This document shows, piece by piece, positions 309-13,511 of a DNA stretch of 22,928 nt. The notes beneath the pieces were generated by a model, which saw only the letters and a program-made list of their open reading frames with translations, did no database searches and was not told the DNA's origin. Every line of letters starts with the position of its first letter. Positions within the stretch are counted from its first letter, which is position 1. Both the position numbers and the translations under genes were made by a program. Origin of the DNA: a virus; IMG/VR virus record IMGVR_UViG_3300030419_005240, positions 1 to 22,928 of that record. The stretch is one strand, 5' to 3'.

Positions 309-1551
309 GGGACACCTCCTCTGTGTCTTGTGTTGTATTATCTTCCCAATCTTTTGATTGGAAATTTTCATTGAGACTGCGTAATGCATCAACAGGATTC
401 AAAACGCCTCCCCAACTGTATATATTACTTTCTGATTTCCATCGCTTTCTAATGAAAGTACCAAGTTCACTGGTATATCCAACAGCGTTTGGATTAGTAA
501 TATATTGTGCGAACATATCCACATTGTTTAGGAATTGCATCACATGAGAATATTTCTCATCTTTAACAAAGTCCATAAGTAGATGGACATATCTCCATGA
601 CATATCAACGAATGCATAGTTCTTAATAAGCCTCTCAGGTATCTGATTAGCTTTGAACATTCTTAACTCTATGGTGTTACCATGACCATTGAAGTTAATC
701 TGCAGACCTCTGCCTTGTGACCATCTCCTATTTTCTACAGCATCTAACAGTTGAGTAACTGTAGACGTAGAATTGAGACCGTTCCAATTGCAAGGTTCAC
801 GTTGACCAACGATGCTCAATAATGATTTACCATTTGATGAGTGTGCAGACTGAGAAAGATTCTCCATCAGCATCAACCACATAAATAGTTCTACATCATT
901 GAATGCAGCCTTTGGTATATGAATATGTAAGCCAGCAGTGTCTGTATCATGACCTTCAAATGCCGAATAACCGACATCCTGCCATGTAGACGCTGCATAC
1001 TTAGTAAAAGCAGTTCTTGTAAATGGTTGTAAGTTAAACTCAACACCATTACGTAAAGAACCGTCACCCTTTGCAGTAATCGGAGCTGTATAATGAAACC
1101 AATCTTGTGATTTCTTTATAGCATAGTTCTTCATACCATCCTGTACTCTCTTATTGATTACTTGAAGGACTTCACGTACCTTGTCATAATCTTGATAGTA
1201 AACATATCCGTCGTTACTGTATGCTTCACAAACACCGAATTCGCAAGCACCATGAGCATTCTCATAGCAAGCTTCGCATTCGTTTTCACACATACATGGC
1301 GACGGAGACATGTCAGATGGTAGTTCCAACTCTAACTCCATACCCATAGGTATTCCTTTCTTCCAATATCTCTTTTGGACTTTCTCTAGTTTCTTCATGG
1401 TCTTAAATCGACCACGATTTCTACCAGCAGGAACACCAATACTATTAGGATATATATTCCATATAGAACCCCTTCCGAAGCCGCCATAGCTAACGGCTTC
1501 TGCAGGGTTGGTATGCAATGAATGTTTAATATCGTCCGTATTTCTTGGCAT
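301..1551 (-). CDS. Amidoligase (glutamine-synthetase-like fold), 416 aa
   Basis: Predicted ATP-dependent COOH-NH2 ligase of the Amidoligase_2 type, which forms amide bonds between a carboxylate and an amine. The family's conserved points appear in order: G70-M-E72-L-E74 (metal/ATP site), D163-G-S165 with G169-V-E171, GLHIHIP around 207-213 (H209, H211), and NTIELRMF around 292-299 (E295, R297). A cysteine cluster (C86, C88, C92, C95, C103, C108) is inserted just after the first motif and could bind zinc; I do not know this insertion from typical members. The N-terminal ~60 residues are unassigned. The gene starts 4 bases after the 978-aa ligase gene, with its ribosome site (AAAGG) inside that gene's stop region, so the two ligases are likely made together. 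The substrate is unknown. Family assignment is firm; role is inference. Confidence 0.85.
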   Translation of the reverse strand: MPRNTDDIKHSLHTNPAEAVSYGGFGRGSIWNIYPNSIGVPAGRNRGRFKTMKKLEKVQKRYWKKGIPMGMELELELPSDMSPSPCMCENECEACYENAHGACEFGVCEAYSNDGYVYYQDYDKVREVLQVINKRVQDGMKNYAIKKSQDWFHYTAPITAKGDGSLRNGVEFNLQPFTRTAFTKYAASTWQDVGYSAFEGHDTDTAGLHIHIPKAAFNDVELFMWLMLMENLSQSAHSSNGKSLLSIVGQREPCNWNGLNSTSTVTQLLDAVENRRWSQGRGLQINFNGHGNTIELRMFKANQIPERLIKNYAFVDMSWRYVHLLMDFVKDEKYSHVMQFLNNVDMFAQYITNPNAVGYTSELGTFIRKRWKSESNIYSWGGVLNPVDALRSLNENFQSKDWEDNTTQDTEEVSHG

Positions 1552-1555
1552 GATA

Positions 1556-4492
1556 TTACCTTTCTATCATCGCGTTAGTGTATTCAATATCATCGACAGT
1601 AATTGTCTCTGATTCGAAGACAAAGTTTCCATTGATAAAGAAGCTAACACTTTCTTGAATGTCCTCTTCTTCCATCTCAACTGGTGTTTCCCAGTAACCA
1701 ATGTCTTCTAGCTCTATTGTTCTATCAGAGCTTGTTTCCTCATTAGTATCTAATAAGAAACTGTATAGATTTGGATACCTATCAGGGTTCTCAATCACAT
1801 AATCATATATCTGCTTTTCAATATGATTAGCAAATGGTACTTCCTCATCATGTATAGTATCAATCTTAGCTTTAGGTGATTGGTTGCCGTATTCTACAGC
1901 AGTCTCAATCAAGCTAGCAGTAGGAACATCCCTTTCGGTGTCCCAACCACCAGAGTTCAAGTAATCCCTCTTAGTTAATTCATAGATTGCATCTACGAAC
2001 TCTAAGTTCTTAAGGATTCTATCTCCCTTAGCATTAGATTGAAAGTATCTCAACTCTATTGTATTTGAGTGTTGCAAGTTTATGCCTTTATACTTGTCAT
2101 TATCTGAACGAGTACGTTGCTTTGCAACCTCAGCCACAACATTGTAAGCGTCTCTGAACGTTAACAAATCCCATCTGGAATAAGAAACATCAGCTCTTTG
2201 AGCGACCTTTCTTAACATTCCATTCGGATTGATTTGTAACGAGTTCAACGCTGATAACATTGCATAAGCATGTCCAACTTCCATTGATGCCCAAGGGAAG
2301 TGGATATGTATACCAACATCTTCAACCTGGAAGGCTTTGTAATTAGCTTCTACAAAGTTCCAGAACTTAGTTGGTACAGCATGCCATGCAGCCAGTGACA
2401 TAGGTTGTGATATAAACTCAACGCCTGTTTCACTCGGAAGTGAACCATCACGTTTCGAATATAGTAACTGTGTATTGTAAGCACCCGCTCCTATTTGGTT
2501 TTCTAAACCTTTAGGATGGAATACCTCAACAGTTCTCTCAAACAATTGCGGAGGACCAATCTCATCTAAGAGCCTTGAATCCCTTGCAATTAGTTCAAGT
2601 TCCAACCCCATAGAGACGCCACGAGTATGATGCCACTCAGGTCTACTTGGGTGACTTCTATTCTGTTCTCTACAGTCATCACTGGTACACGTACACCTAT
2701 CAGAGTTTACAACTCCAACGGTTGGCGTATCTGTTGACTGGTTGTAATACATTCCATCTCTGTAATGTACATAATAGAATCTAGGTGAATAGTTGTATTC
2801 ATTCTTATCCTTATTAAGCTCCAGACCTATGCCTGGTGGCTCAATCCAACCATCATCAGTTACGCGTGCCTGTGCATTTCTTCCGTTACGACCCCTTGAT
2901 TGATAACGAAACTCTCTATCCCAGAGAGCATTATCAATTCTTAAGCTGATAATAGTATCAGCTAATGGATTGTCAGACGAATAGATATACACATTAGGTA
3001 GTTGTAACCCTACCATACGTGCAAAATCAGCACCGCTTATTGGGCTGTTAGAATCGTCTTCGAGATAACCGCCAACTGCATCGTGATTATGTTGACCTGC
3101 GCTACTAGAATCTTCTAGTACCCTAAATTTACAGACATCAGTAATCACTTGTGACCGTATATCTCCTGGTACACCCTTAAAGTTGGTGTACAGCCAAGTC
3201 ATATACTTACGAGCATCTACCTGAAGCATTGTTACTGCATCTTCGACATATTCATCATTGAAGACTTCTATGTCTTGGTAGTTAGCATCGTCAATATACT
3301 TAATCATATAATCACGAGAACCACGTGCTCTAGGTGAGTCGTTACCATGTATGTAGTTAACATACCAGTCAGCACCCATCCCTTCGTACTGTTGATTCGT
3401 ATCATATGATACCTTGGGACTCAACTTAACCCATGACTTCTTAGATGGATTGTAAGATGATGTTGTGAAAGTATTGCATATGAAGCATATTCTCTCTCGA
3501 GCGCTTCTGCTATAACTGTCCAACGTCTTATACCATGTTAAGAAGTGAGCATTGTACATCAATCGGCAGATAGTACATTCTCTGTACTGTCTTCCACCCC
3601 ATCGATGCTCACGCGGCTTCCATCTATCTTCGTGGAAATCATAGAACCTTGCATGGTCATAGGCAGAAGTAGAGCCACCGTAGTAGCCATTTCCTGCTCC
3701 AGTTTGATACAAGTTAACTAGATTATCACTCCACATTAGATAGTTAGAATCCATTCTCTCTATAGATTCAGGGATATCCCTTTCTTCATAGAGGAACTCT
3801 TTATAGGTTTCACTTGGTAGTGGTAAGCAAATGTATCTTAGTGGCATCTTCTTCCAGAATCTTGCTGCAGAAGTTGCCATAAATACCCTTTGCCTTAGGA
3901 ACGCCATATCTTCCATTGATATTCGTACTCCTTCAGGATATTGCCATGGTTGTACATAGAATGTCCTGTTCAGAATACTGAACAATGGATGAATTTCGGC
4001 TGAACCATAACCTCGATTGATTACCTCAGTCGATTGCACACCATCAAAAGCATCTAGGATATCTTCATTATCAAAGATTCCACCATACATCTTGTAAAGT
4101 ATGCGCCTGTCATCAGCATCCTGCACATCGTGCTGCATCACTTTATTTACAATATCGTAAATATCGTTCAACAGATTATTGATGAACAGTCCATCGTTGT
4201 CTCTATTAAATAGAGAGTGCCAATCAAGGTCGTTGTCACCACCAAATAAGTCGATTATAAGTAACTTATCGTACTGTAGATTTGTTATCTCTCCATCACG
4301 AATAGGTGTTGACCTATCCGGGTGGTTGGAGTCTAACCAATCTCTATAAGAATATTCCATATTTCGGAACTGGAATGTTCCGCCATTGGAAGATGCTTCA
4401 TTAGTTACGATAGGTTCTATTTCAGACCAGTCAGCAACCTTATAACTAAGGATGTTGTGAACTGGACTAATAAATGATTCTTTTTCAATCAT
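1556..4492 (-). CDS. Large two-part protein with C-terminal amidoligase domain, 978 aa
   Basis: The C-terminal part (about 625-845) repeats the amidoligase signature: GVSMGLELELIA around 625-636, D682-G-S684 with G690-V-E692, VGIHIHF around 726-732 (H729, H731), and NTIELRYF around 810-817 (E813, R815). It is the same family as the 416-aa neighbour, and the lead-in to the first motif is also alike (G-x-x-M-G-x-E-L-E-L). The N-terminal ~590 residues match nothing I recognise. They carry a four-cysteine zinc-ribbon pattern (C306-x2-C309, C336-x2-C339), and a second cluster (C600, C602, C607) sits directly before the ligase domain. The C-terminus is acidic. The start has a clear AAGGAGATAG ribosome site. 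A ligase fused to a large, probably substrate-recognising, region is unusual; the usual domain alone is about 250-300 residues. Confidence 0.82.
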   Translation of the reverse strand: MIEKESFISPVHNILSYKVADWSEIEPIVTNEASSNGGTFQFRNMEYSYRDWLDSNHPDRSTPIRDGEITNLQYDKLLIIDLFGGDNDLDWHSLFNRDNDGLFINNLLNDIYDIVNKVMQHDVQDADDRRILYKMYGGIFDNEDILDAFDGVQSTEVINRGYGSAEIHPLFSILNRTFYVQPWQYPEGVRISMEDMAFLRQRVFMATSAARFWKKMPLRYICLPLPSETYKEFLYEERDIPESIERMDSNYLMWSDNLVNLYQTGAGNGYYGGSTSAYDHARFYDFHEDRWKPREHRWGGRQYRECTICRLMYNAHFLTWYKTLDSYSRSARERICFICNTFTTSSYNPSKKSWVKLSPKVSYDTNQQYEGMGADWYVNYIHGNDSPRARGSRDYMIKYIDDANYQDIEVFNDEYVEDAVTMLQVDARKYMTWLYTNFKGVPGDIRSQVITDVCKFRVLEDSSSAGQHNHDAVGGYLEDDSNSPISGADFARMVGLQLPNVYIYSSDNPLADTIISLRIDNALWDREFRYQSRGRNGRNAQARVTDDGWIEPPGIGLELNKDKNEYNYSPRFYYVHYRDGMYYNQSTDTPTVGVVNSDRCTCTSDDCREQNRSHPSRPEWHHTRGVSMGLELELIARDSRLLDEIGPPQLFERTVEVFHPKGLENQIGAGAYNTQLLYSKRDGSLPSETGVEFISQPMSLAAWHAVPTKFWNFVEANYKAFQVEDVGIHIHFPWASMEVGHAYAMLSALNSLQINPNGMLRKVAQRADVSYSRWDLLTFRDAYNVVAEVAKQRTRSDNDKYKGINLQHSNTIELRYFQSNAKGDRILKNLEFVDAIYELTKRDYLNSGGWDTERDVPTASLIETAVEYGNQSPKAKIDTIHDEEVPFANHIEKQIYDYVIENPDRYPNLYSFLLDTNEETSSDRTIELEDIGYWETPVEMEEEDIQESVSFFINGNFVFESETITVDDIEYTNAMIER

Positions 4493-4525
4493 TATCTATC
4501 TCCTTATAGTGTAGTTATTTTATTG

Positions 4526-5737
4526 TCAGTCAAACAGACTAGTTTGACCGGTTATGTCAGGATATACTGTGTGATTCACAGCTTTCCTAACATGTTTGTC
4601 TACAGCTTGCTCTATGTCAGCTCTTTCCTCCCAGGGAGTAGTATCATTCTGCTTCCAGTCTTGTCTTTCAGCAGCTATTCTCTCTGATTCTTCTAGCTCT
4701 TCATAGTATTCTTCAGCTGTTGAACCATCCCAATTCTCAAACATACATGTCTCATGACATGTTCTTTCGAAATTATTTGTTTGGTCTAGTTCATTTTGAC
4801 AATCAGGGCATCTGAATTTACCATCTATGTCTATTTCAAAGTACATACCCTCAAGGGCGTCTTTGAGATTGTTATATCTGGTAACTTCGAGTAGTGCCTC
4901 GATTTTCTTTAGGAAGTCATCATCGTCTATAAGATTTTCATCATATAGTCCGTCCATGAGCCCTATAGCATCCAATTCATCATCGGACATTTCTGCCCAA
5001 TTACTGGTATTGAATCTTCCATTAGCATCCGGGTCTCCTTGAGCAATGGCACTCAATACTTCACTGTCGCGAGATATTGATTCATTTGCACCGTCGAAGG
5101 TCTTTCGTCCCCAGTTATCATCCCTGATATTGGAATAAACAGGCTTTATATGGTTCTGATTAGAGAACCAACATGCGTCCTTGTAAACTCCTCGACCAGA
5201 GTTGATGACATAAGTTTGATGTTTCAATGCAGGATTTGCATTAAGAACCACCAGCTTATTACCCCATCCAATCAACTCTTCAATTACGTCGATTACTCTA
5301 GGGTCATCAAGTGCTCGTATATCAAAGTTGCCCCAGAAGAGCTCATTGAATCTACGAGTATCACTGATTTGGATGCCATCAGTATCTCTATCTTTCTCCG
5401 TTGTTAAGAACGCAGAAGGTAGGATACCGTTATGTGCAAATACCATATCCTTCAATGGTTTTCCATCCTGTATTACATTGAACGGGTGAACGTTCTGTTT
5501 ACAGACATCACCATGTGTTTTGACACGCATATGCACTAGTATGTCATTGGAACCATGTTCCTTGACAATCTCCTTGAACCACTTCAAGAAGGTTTTGAGC
5601 TTCAGAGTCTTCTTGACTTTGATAGCTCCATCCTTGATGAAGGCTATGCCTCCACCATCAGGATTGGTCTGCCACATATCTCTGAGTTCTTCCTCAGTGA
5701 TTGTTTGACCAGCGGGTATACTTGCTATTACGCACAT
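4526..5737 (-). CDS. Class II (Ntn-type) glutamine amidotransferase, 403 aa
   Basis: Predicted glutaminase-type enzyme of the Gn_AT_II / Ntn-hydrolase fold. After removal of Met1 the N-terminal Cys2 would be the nucleophile (MCVIASI). Supporting motifs are NPDGGG (25-30), HMRVKTHG (69-76), HPF (84-86), FAHNGIL (100-106) and SDT (125-127), as in GlmS/PurF-type amidotransferase domains. The start is fixed by Cys2 and an AAAGGAAA ribosome site. After residue ~190 there is no synthetase domain. Instead there is an acidic stretch, a four-cysteine zinc motif (C310-x2-C313, C327-x3-C331) and a C-terminal tail ending GQTSLFD, which resembles a bacterial sliding-clamp-binding peptide. Next to two amidoligases it probably supplies ammonia or processes an amide for them; that pairing of families is known from phage and bacterial gene neighbourhoods. 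Substrate unknown. Confidence 0.86.
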   Translation of the reverse strand: MCVIASIPAGQTITEEELRDMWQTNPDGGGIAFIKDGAIKVKKTLKLKTFLKWFKEIVKEHGSNDILVHMRVKTHGDVCKQNVHPFNVIQDGKPLKDMVFAHNGILPSAFLTTEKDRDTDGIQISDTRRFNELFWGNFDIRALDDPRVIDVIEELIGWGNKLVVLNANPALKHQTYVINSGRGVYKDACWFSNQNHIKPVYSNIRDDNWGRKTFDGANESISRDSEVLSAIAQGDPDANGRFNTSNWAEMSDDELDAIGLMDGLYDENLIDDDDFLKKIEALLEVTRYNNLKDALEGMYFEIDIDGKFRCPDCQNELDQTNNFERTCHETCMFENWDGSTAEEYYEELEESERIAAERQDWKQNDTTPWEERADIEQAVDKHVRKAVNHTVYPDITGQTSLFD

Positions 5738-5771
5738 ATATTTCCTTTTCCTAGTGTTTATTTAGTTGTAT

Positions 5772-6167
5772 CTATGCAAAGCGAGCCAGTCCCGTAAACG
5801 GAAATGGCTCTGCATAGGATATATCTTTTAATTGTATGAAACCATACATAGACATATCAGTTATTATATGCCAGGCATATACATTGAGTTGATAATCAGT
5901 TAAACCTACTAGGTTAACATTCTGTCTCAACACATGTACTGTTTCTAGCAATGTGTTTACTACATAATTTCTGCCTTGGACGGTATAGTTCTCCGCCGAA
6001 GCATAGTCATATAGTGCTATTGTTAAGTCAACATCACCTTTATCAGGTAGATGTGTTCTTAAGTAATTAACCTGAACTACGTTCAAGTTTTTATATCCAT
6101 AGTTATCTTTATTAAGATAAGCATGAAGATTACGCATAATGGGTAGTTTGTTCAATTTACTCTCCAT
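5772..6167 (-). CDS. Hypothetical protein, 131 aa, amidoligase operon
   Basis: I do not recognise the family. The protein is soluble-looking, with no cysteines and no membrane segment, and is rich in Asn and Tyr (for example the stretch around NKDNYGYKNLNVVQVNYL-). It lies 10 bases after the preceding gene and 34 before the amidotransferase gene, so it is co-transcribed with them. The ribosome site at the chosen ATG (6167) is poor; an in-frame ATG eleven codons on has no better one. Its position directly before the glutaminase gene suggests a partner or substrate of that enzyme, but only context says so. Confidence 0.65.
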   Translation of the reverse strand: MESKLNKLPIMRNLHAYLNKDNYGYKNLNVVQVNYLRTHLPDKGDVDLTIALYDYASAENYTVQGRNYVVNTLLETVHVLRQNVNLVGLTDYQLNVYAWHIITDMSMYGFIQLKDISYAEPFPFTGLARFA

Positions 6168-13040: not shown

Positions 13041-13082
13041 AATTCGAATAAGGCGGGTCCGTGAGCCCGCTTTCGAATTTTT
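13041..13082 (+). terminator. Intrinsic terminator after the exonuclease gene
   Basis: Outer stem AATTCGAA / TTCGAATT (13041-13048, 13072-13079), inner GC stem GCGGGT / GCCCGC (13053-13058, 13065-13070), loop CCGTGA, then Ts to 13082. It ends exactly where the tmRNA-like RNA begins. Either it ends the whiB transcript and the RNA has its own promoter, or it forms part of the RNA precursor. Confidence 0.7.
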
Positions 13083-13162
13083 GGGGCTGAATGGTTTGAC
13101 TTATTGTAGTTGCGGGACAGTAGTTACAAGAAGTAACTCGGGTTCGATTCCCGACAGCTCCA
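13083..13162 (+). ncRNA. 80-nt tmRNA-derived, tRNA-Ala-like RNA
   Basis: Both ends resemble actinobacterial tmRNA. The 5' end GGGGCTGAATGGTTTGACTT differs from the form I remember by one change and one missing base. The 3' end carries a T-arm TCGGG-TTCGATT-CCCGA (13138-13154) and CAGCTCCA. The acceptor stem is seven pairs with G3-U, the alanine identity pair of tRNA-Ala and tmRNA. But the tag frame and pseudoknots are gone: total length is 80. The middle folds as ATTGT / ACAGT (13103-13107, 13117-13121) with a nine-base loop whose centre is T-TGC-G, an Ala UGC anticodon after U33, and then GTTAC / GTAAC as a long variable arm. There is no D-stem, as in tmRNA. CCA is not encoded. It may be a charged tRNA-Ala, a decoy, or a remnant used as an attachment site. 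Confidence 0.72.
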
Positions 13163-13186
13163 CAAAAAACAAATACCACACCCTTG

Positions 13187-13195
13187 TGATATAGT
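13187..13195 (+). promoter_or_regulatory. Extended -10 promoter
   Basis: TGA-TATAGT matches the extended -10 pattern TGn-TANNNT. It lies 9 bases before the ATG of the 74-aa gene, so that transcript may be leaderless; no ribosome site is seen there. Confidence 0.5.
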
Positions 13196-13204
13196 TTTAA
13201 TACA

Positions 13205-13429
13205 ATGATTAACGATTATATTTTCGCAAACAAAAAAAGATTTAAGGTAATTGAAGCAGATGAAAACTACATAATAGAAATGTATTCTCACAATGAACTG
13301 ATTGATGAATTTCGTATTGAAAAAGGAGCCAACCCAAGAGAAATTAGAGAATCAATTCTTTTCTGGTTTAGTATGAACTACTCCTTACCTCAGTCATTAA
13401 ATACCATAAAAAGTAAAGCGAAGAGTTAA
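13205..13429 (+). CDS. Hypothetical protein, 74 aa
   Basis: Unrecognised. Acidic-to-neutral, probably compact alpha/beta, no cysteines and no membrane helix. Residues 1-36 could form strands (YIFANKKRFKVIEADENYIIEM), followed by a helix (REIRESILFWFSMN) and a basic end. No Shine-Dalgarno precedes the ATG, while an extended -10 sits just upstream, so leaderless translation is likely. It lies between the tmRNA-like RNA and the next promoter, apparently as its own unit. Confidence 0.6.
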   Translation: MINDYIFANKKRFKVIEADENYIIEMYSHNELIDEFRIEKGANPREIRESILFWFSMNYSLPQSLNTIKSKAKS

Positions 13430-13470
13430 AGTGGTTATGTCGGCATCCACACCGACCTCCTCCCATCATC

Positions 13471-13490
13471 GGCTCTTCTACGGAAGAGCT
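13471..13490 (+). other. UACG-tetraloop hairpin after the 74-aa gene
   Basis: GCTCTTC-TACG-GAAGAGC is a 7-bp perfect stem closed by a C(UACG)G loop, extended by one G-U pair. It follows a smaller stem GTCGG / CCGAC. There is no U-tract. It probably marks the 3' end or processing point of the 74-aa transcript; a promoter comes 20 bases later. Confidence 0.4.
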
Positions 13491-13511
13491 GTATCTAAAA
13501 CCAAAATCCAC

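Follow-up and report, generated by a model that had tools for sequence, protein, structure and literature searches.

Among phage tmRNAs, that of the mycobacteriophage DS6A is listed as 'TLD only', i.e., as consisting of the tRNA-like domain (TLD) only, by Hudson and others 2014 (PMC4131195). Nawrocki and others 2025 classified 9 of 97,179 tmRNAs as 'standard, no CDS' (PMC11915505). According to the accounts of Mao 2009 in PMC4131195 and PMC11915505, a TLD-only-like molecule strongly inhibits tmRNA whether or not it can be charged, perhaps by titrating SmpB. The determinant recognised by AlaRS is the G3-U70 pair, which is fixed in tmRNA, and SmpB contacts the deformed D-arm of tmRNA (PMC3985003).

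The window, i.e., the whole stretch of 22,928 nt of viral DNA analysed here, contains a TLD-only, tag-less mini-tmRNA gene of 80 nt at 13083..13162 (+), running from its 5' end to the discriminator A. The Rfam tmRNA model RF00023 matched these positions with 49.2 bits (E 7.3e-17; gathering score 47) over model positions 1-374, with both model ends aligned to the window RNA and ~290 positions skipped in the middle. R1, a covariance model built only from the mini-tmRNAs of other phages, gave 50.3 bits (E 2.8e-8). ARAGORN called neither a tRNA nor a tmRNA in the window. The whole 80-nt RNA had a folding z of -2.8.

All elements of the window RNA lie on the + strand. The acceptor stem combines a 5' strand GGGGCUG (13083..13089) with a 3' strand CAGCUCC, which is followed by the discriminator A73 (13155..13162); 7/7 pairs are formed, among them the AlaRS identity pair of G3 (13085) and U70 (13159). 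The window does not encode CCA, since A73 is followed by CAA. The stem-less D-loop AAUGGUUUG (13090..13098) is of the tmRNA type GG..UYGAC and lacks one base relative to the consensus of the family. Next, folding predicts a P2-type hairpin (13099..13134) of 4 bp, an A-G mismatch and 10 bp, with the 6-nt loop GGGACA at 13114-13119. The T-arm (13138..13154), with a stem of 5 bp and the loop UUCGAUU, and the 3' acceptor strand are supported by both the RF00023 match and folding. Neither a tag reading frame nor pseudoknots are present in the 80 nt or in the RF00023 alignment. Like a TLD-only tmRNA, the window RNA thus has G3-U70, the stem-less D-loop and the T-arm in standard 5'-3' order, lacks the mRNA-like domain and has little beyond the TLD. 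It is a tmRNA reduced to its tRNA-like domain and closed by a short P2 hairpin. An earlier note, made from the letters of this DNA, had described tmRNA-type ends, a length of 80 nt, the G3-U pair and the absence of a D-stem and a tag frame, all of which were confirmed. Its claim of tmRNA ancestry is upheld by the Rfam scoring that it had proposed, where tmRNA similarity above the gathering score was found across both ends of the model. Its statement that full-length phage tmRNAs were known but not this form overlooks the TLD-only tmRNA of mycobacteriophage DS6A (PMC4131195).

The middle of the RNA folds differently from what had been proposed. The earlier note drew a 5-bp variable arm and an anticodon arm whose 9-nt loop holds UGC. 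Its fold has an energy of -24.4 kcal/mol, compared with -28.6 kcal/mol for the P2-like hairpin, in which RNA positions 17-20/49-52 and 22-31/38-47 are paired (14 bp), a difference of 4.2 kcal/mol. The pair probabilities were 0.6-1.0 for P2 and 0.0 for all pairs of the proposed anticodon and variable arms. The anticodon-arm fold was dropped on account of its energy and pairing probability. In the window RNA, UGC (13111-13113) sits within the P2 stem. Constrained folding of 76 non-redundant relatives with a single middle hairpin placed UGC in the apical loop of only one. An atypical tRNA-Ala(UGC), reading Ala codons, would fit the alanine identity pair and the U-preceded UGC in the middle of the RNA. 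However, neither the D-stem nor the 5-bp/7-nt anticodon arm of such a tRNA is found and ARAGORN was negative, and with no anticodon loop formed and UGC hardly ever apical, the suggested reading of Ala codons is the least probable of the explanations considered here. The instability of the UGC arm and the presence of the P2 hairpin imply that the RNA follows the plan of a tmRNA (acceptor, D-loop, P2, T-arm) rather than that of a tRNA.

Pattern scans of viral contigs, with the acceptor sequence prescribed in the first two patterns, yielded at least 186 distinct mini-tmRNA sequences of 64-92 nt, with a length peak at 78-79 nt; among the matches listed, 119 of these at least 186 sequences share <85% identity with each other. 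Three pattern matches (L116, L117, L141) resembled true tRNAs by eye and were taken out of the census, from which L163 was also excluded. When 97 members were aligned, 97.4% of the pair cells were paired, 15/19 pairs showed compensatory changes on both sides, and the covariation score was 0.73 compared with 0.04-0.09 for slid structures, in an alignment that was fitted to the structure and hence is biased towards it. A separate MAFFT alignment of 30 members showed compensatory changes in 12/19 predicted pairs, including all P2 pairs. In many members, P2 ends in a recurrent cap, in which a 7-8-bp stem is followed by an A-rich strand of ~4 nt (AAAG, AAGA) facing A or AA, and is topped by three pairs (e.g., CCG/CGG) with a loop, for instance CACG or CAUG. 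A rough survey with per-member constrained folds found this A-rich internal-loop cap clearly in only 37 members, and 42/119 folded with two middle hairpins. The window RNA has a long straight P2 without the cap, as do L122, L082, L055 and L103. It is a divergent member, ranking 94/97 by score, with its straight P2 and a D-loop that is one base short. No close, exact-type siblings that could serve a covariation test of its own P2 were found. Two further observations concern the set as a whole. The base after A73 was C in 150/162 mini-tmRNAs, yet only 33 had CCA. Furthermore, one phage locus (L181) contained two mini-tmRNA matches, at 5-81 and 1317-1392.

The features relevant to charging with alanine were followed in an unbiased scan, which fixed C66, A67, the T-loop and the D-loop GGTTTCGAC but left the 5' acceptor strand entirely free, as well as positions 68-73. 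The scan returned 79 distinct matches, of which 78 were mini-tmRNAs. All 78 had both G3-U70 and A73, and in the same 78 the pairs 4-69 and 5-68 varied with covariation. Moreover, G3-U70 was invariant in the 97 aligned members, and the mini-tmRNAs of the cultured Streptomyces phages retained it despite a changed pair 4-69 or 6-67 (GGGUCUG/CAGAUCC, GGGGUAG/CUACUCC). Because G3-U70 and A73 did not change where the scan left both free, the alanylation of mini-tmRNAs appears to be selected. The conservation of G3-U70 could partly be inherited, as tmRNAs generally share this pair. Its survival over a wide divergence nevertheless argues for the use of alanylation. Hence, the probable charging with alanine that the earlier note suggested gains support from the invariant G3-U70 and A73, as far as sequences can tell.

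With a strict pattern, viral contigs gave 43 matching stretches, compared with 3 from 257 Gb of prokaryote genomes (bacteria and archaea). These raw counts, in which the viral base total is not factored in, show a strong bias towards phage contigs. Two of the three prokaryote-genome contigs with mini-tmRNAs carry WhiB-like and HNH genes, of actinophage type; the third has methyltransferase-like and glycosyltransferase-like genes and is phage-like by reading only. Six records of cultured Streptomyces phages contain mini-tmRNAs that are not named in the annotation. Those of LuckySocke, Alone3, pSt2308, BRock and Shaeky were found by the R1 model, and 4/5 of these also by Rfam, while the mini-tmRNA of GiJojo was found by BLAST (86.8% identity, 85% of the query covered). 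With the window RNA as BLAST query, phage records gave mostly T-arm matches, and the Streptomyces phage mini-tmRNAs came up with other members as queries. One such T-arm match, the 'tRNA-Ser' of Gordonia phage Madeline (L151), was rejected as a tRNA- or att-type sequence beside an integrase. Unannotated mini-tmRNAs occur in Streptomyces phage tRNA arrays at 2491-2568 (L350), 2491-2569 (L351), 2487-2563 (L352), 2477-2554 (L353) and 2471-2548 (L354), either after tRNA-Val or between tRNA-Phe and tRNA-Leu. In metagenomic phages, as judged from sequence reading, they often adjoin terminase, portal, protease, scaffold or capsid-like genes. These unrelated neighbourhoods suggest that the RNA acts in trans rather than on a fixed neighbour. 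Among 1,582 ORFs neighbouring the mini-tmRNAs, phmmer detected no match to SmpB. As a separate observation, permuted two-piece tmRNAs above the Rfam cut-off, where no feature was annotated, were seen in the cultured phages Pseudomonas SM1, Xanthomonas Rb1 and X1, and Acinetobacter BUCT628 (L356, L357, L360, L361).

Both neighbouring genes were on the same strand as the RNA in 71/110 loci. Such co-directional genes would suit a processing punctuation mark, i.e., an RNA that RNase P and 3' nucleases excise from late transcripts, thereby setting mRNA ends. Against this explanation, an ordinary tRNA would suffice for the purpose, the invariant G3-U70/A73 and the tmRNA D-loop are left unexplained, and cultured Streptomyces phages have their mini-tmRNAs embedded in tRNA arrays. 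We consider it improbable.

The window phage encodes terminase subunits, a WhiB-like protein, DNA-polymerase exonuclease-type proteins, HNH, portal, protease and capsid proteins. Because of the WhiB-like protein, its host is probably an actinobacterium. Elsewhere in its contig (L349), an ORF of 1791 aa at 488-5863 had no PHROG match at E 0.001. Regex and R1 searches found no mini-tmRNA in the best 80 TerL relatives listed (66-93% identity). Directly 5' of the window RNA lies a terminator-like hairpin with a T-run (13050..13082, +), and a similar hairpin occupies the same place in the relatives without the RNA. On the 3' side, a conserved leader- or promoter-like stretch AAATACCA...GTGATATAG with the start of the next gene (13171..13207, +) marks the border of the inserted module. 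In relatives that cover this region, the conserved AAATACCA leader comes immediately after the terminator-like hairpin, whereas in the window the two are ~88 bases apart, a distance taken up by the RNA together with a few A-rich bases. The junction without RNA in the relatives implies that the RNA is a discrete module with a clean insertion, which by this comparison was either gained by the window lineage or lost in the others. With a terminator-like hairpin immediately 5' of it, the RNA can be transcribed only by read-through or from a promoter that is not apparent. Further downstream, 13438-13492 holds a non-coding element that is very strongly conserved in 66/80 TerL relatives, among the best 80 listed. 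It has two hairpins around an invariant CTCCTCCCATCATC containing ACCTCCT, which resembles the 16S anti-Shine-Dalgarno, a folding z of -4.9 and no Rfam match, and may be a cos site or else encode a small RNA.

A module of this kind might be what is left of a tmRNA from host or phage, or an attP core that derives from the host ssrA, as the earlier note had also envisaged (a leftover or attachment core). The tmRNA gene is often an integration site of genomic islands (PMC11915505), and tyrosine integrase genes lie near a few mini-tmRNAs (L049, L024). However, such genes were detected in only 3/125 related loci. No integrase match was obtained among the 30 searched proteins, which cover all but a few small ORFs of the 29.7-kb contig, itself only part of the genome. 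Moreover, both ends of the RNA are intact and match tmRNA, its two halves rather than the 3' half alone are present where the kin of the window phage have nothing, and in the family both halves are conserved and the stems covary. We therefore regard a remnant or attachment core as very improbable.

Our preferred reading, to which we assign a probability of roughly 0.6, is that the mini-tmRNA is an antagonist of host trans-translation acting via AlaRS, SmpB and EF-Tu. RNase P and 3' processing would free it from a longer transcript, after which the matured RNA would receive CCA and then alanine from AlaRS. The charged RNA would be bound by SmpB and EF-Tu and would compete with, or replace, the host tmRNA on stalled ribosomes. 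Since it lacks the message part, it has no resume codon and no tag would be added. Antagonism may result from titration of SmpB, or the charged RNA may enter the A-site and form a dead end there. Owing to the invariant alanine identity pair, we favour the charged form that enters the ribosome over pure SmpB titration. Pointing in the other direction, charging was reportedly unnecessary for inhibition in Mao 2009, so far as that work is recounted in later papers, which leaves the constraint on G3-U70 unexplained by titration alone. The phage may benefit because its own proteins would be spared tagging and proteolysis, or because anti-phage ribosome rescue would be blunted. The earlier note had listed a decoy that blocks trans-translation among its options, an idea that agrees with the inhibition reported for a similar molecule in what PMC4131195 and PMC11915505 relate of it.

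The main rival to the antagonist reading is a working tag-less rescue RNA. It would be charged, bind SmpB and take over the nascent chain of stalled ribosomes, upon which these would fall apart without mRNA and be freed for the phage, leaving the peptide unmarked for proteolysis. The invariant alanine identity of the mini-tmRNAs fits this role, and mitochondrial tmRNAs without a tag frame have been retained alongside SmpB and may still be of use when mRNAs are incomplete (PMC11915505). In contrast, a TLD-only molecule is reported to inhibit E. coli tmRNA, in the accounts given by PMC4131195 and PMC11915505, and the RNA has no visible trigger for peptide release. Hence, we think that a rescue role is unlikely.

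Returning to antagonism, a broader proposal is held more tentatively, at somewhat less than even odds. In this proposal, the widespread and almost virus-specific charged mini-tmRNAs would constitute an RNA-based anti-rescue system, i.e., a counter-defence, in which, as the invariant alanine identity pair would imply, the alanylated RNA with SmpB and EF-Tu acts on stalled ribosomes instead of being a mere SmpB sponge, and which unrelated phages gained repeatedly. At least 186 distinct viral mini-tmRNAs occur, although ARAGORN did not detect the one in the window and the records of cultured phages do not annotate theirs; this number suggests that the use of an RNA to interfere with ribosome rescue is a common phage strategy. 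The cultured Streptomyces phages that carry them open direct experimental access.

Compared with known systems, the window RNA has the GGGGNUG acceptor, G3-U70, stem-less D-loop, T-arm and A73 in common with standard tmRNA/ssrA (RF00023). It differs in lacking the message part, the pseudoknots and the tag, and in having a short loop at the end of P2. Full-length phage tmRNAs (Bxz1 and others, Kumao, and Streptomyces phages such as Samisti12) are likewise phage-encoded and have the same tRNA-like ends; they are either annotated, with a length of 407 bases in Kumao, or known by the names of their tag peptides, whereas the window RNA cannot tag. The CDS-less tmRNAs of mitochondria and of Mallomonadaceae plastids (~65 bp in the plastids; PMC11915505) are tag-less as well. 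However, these are organellar and the mitochondrial gene is usually permuted, whereas the window RNA belongs to a phage and has the standard order. Like the window RNA, the TLD-only tmRNA of DS6A (tmID 11587, 'Phage__Mycobacterium.9') is phage-encoded, without a tag frame and with little beyond the TLD, a likeness drawn from its published description. DS6A is a single named case. In contrast, the window RNA is one of many, and what is new here is that mini-tmRNAs form a large and diverse set across several phage groups.
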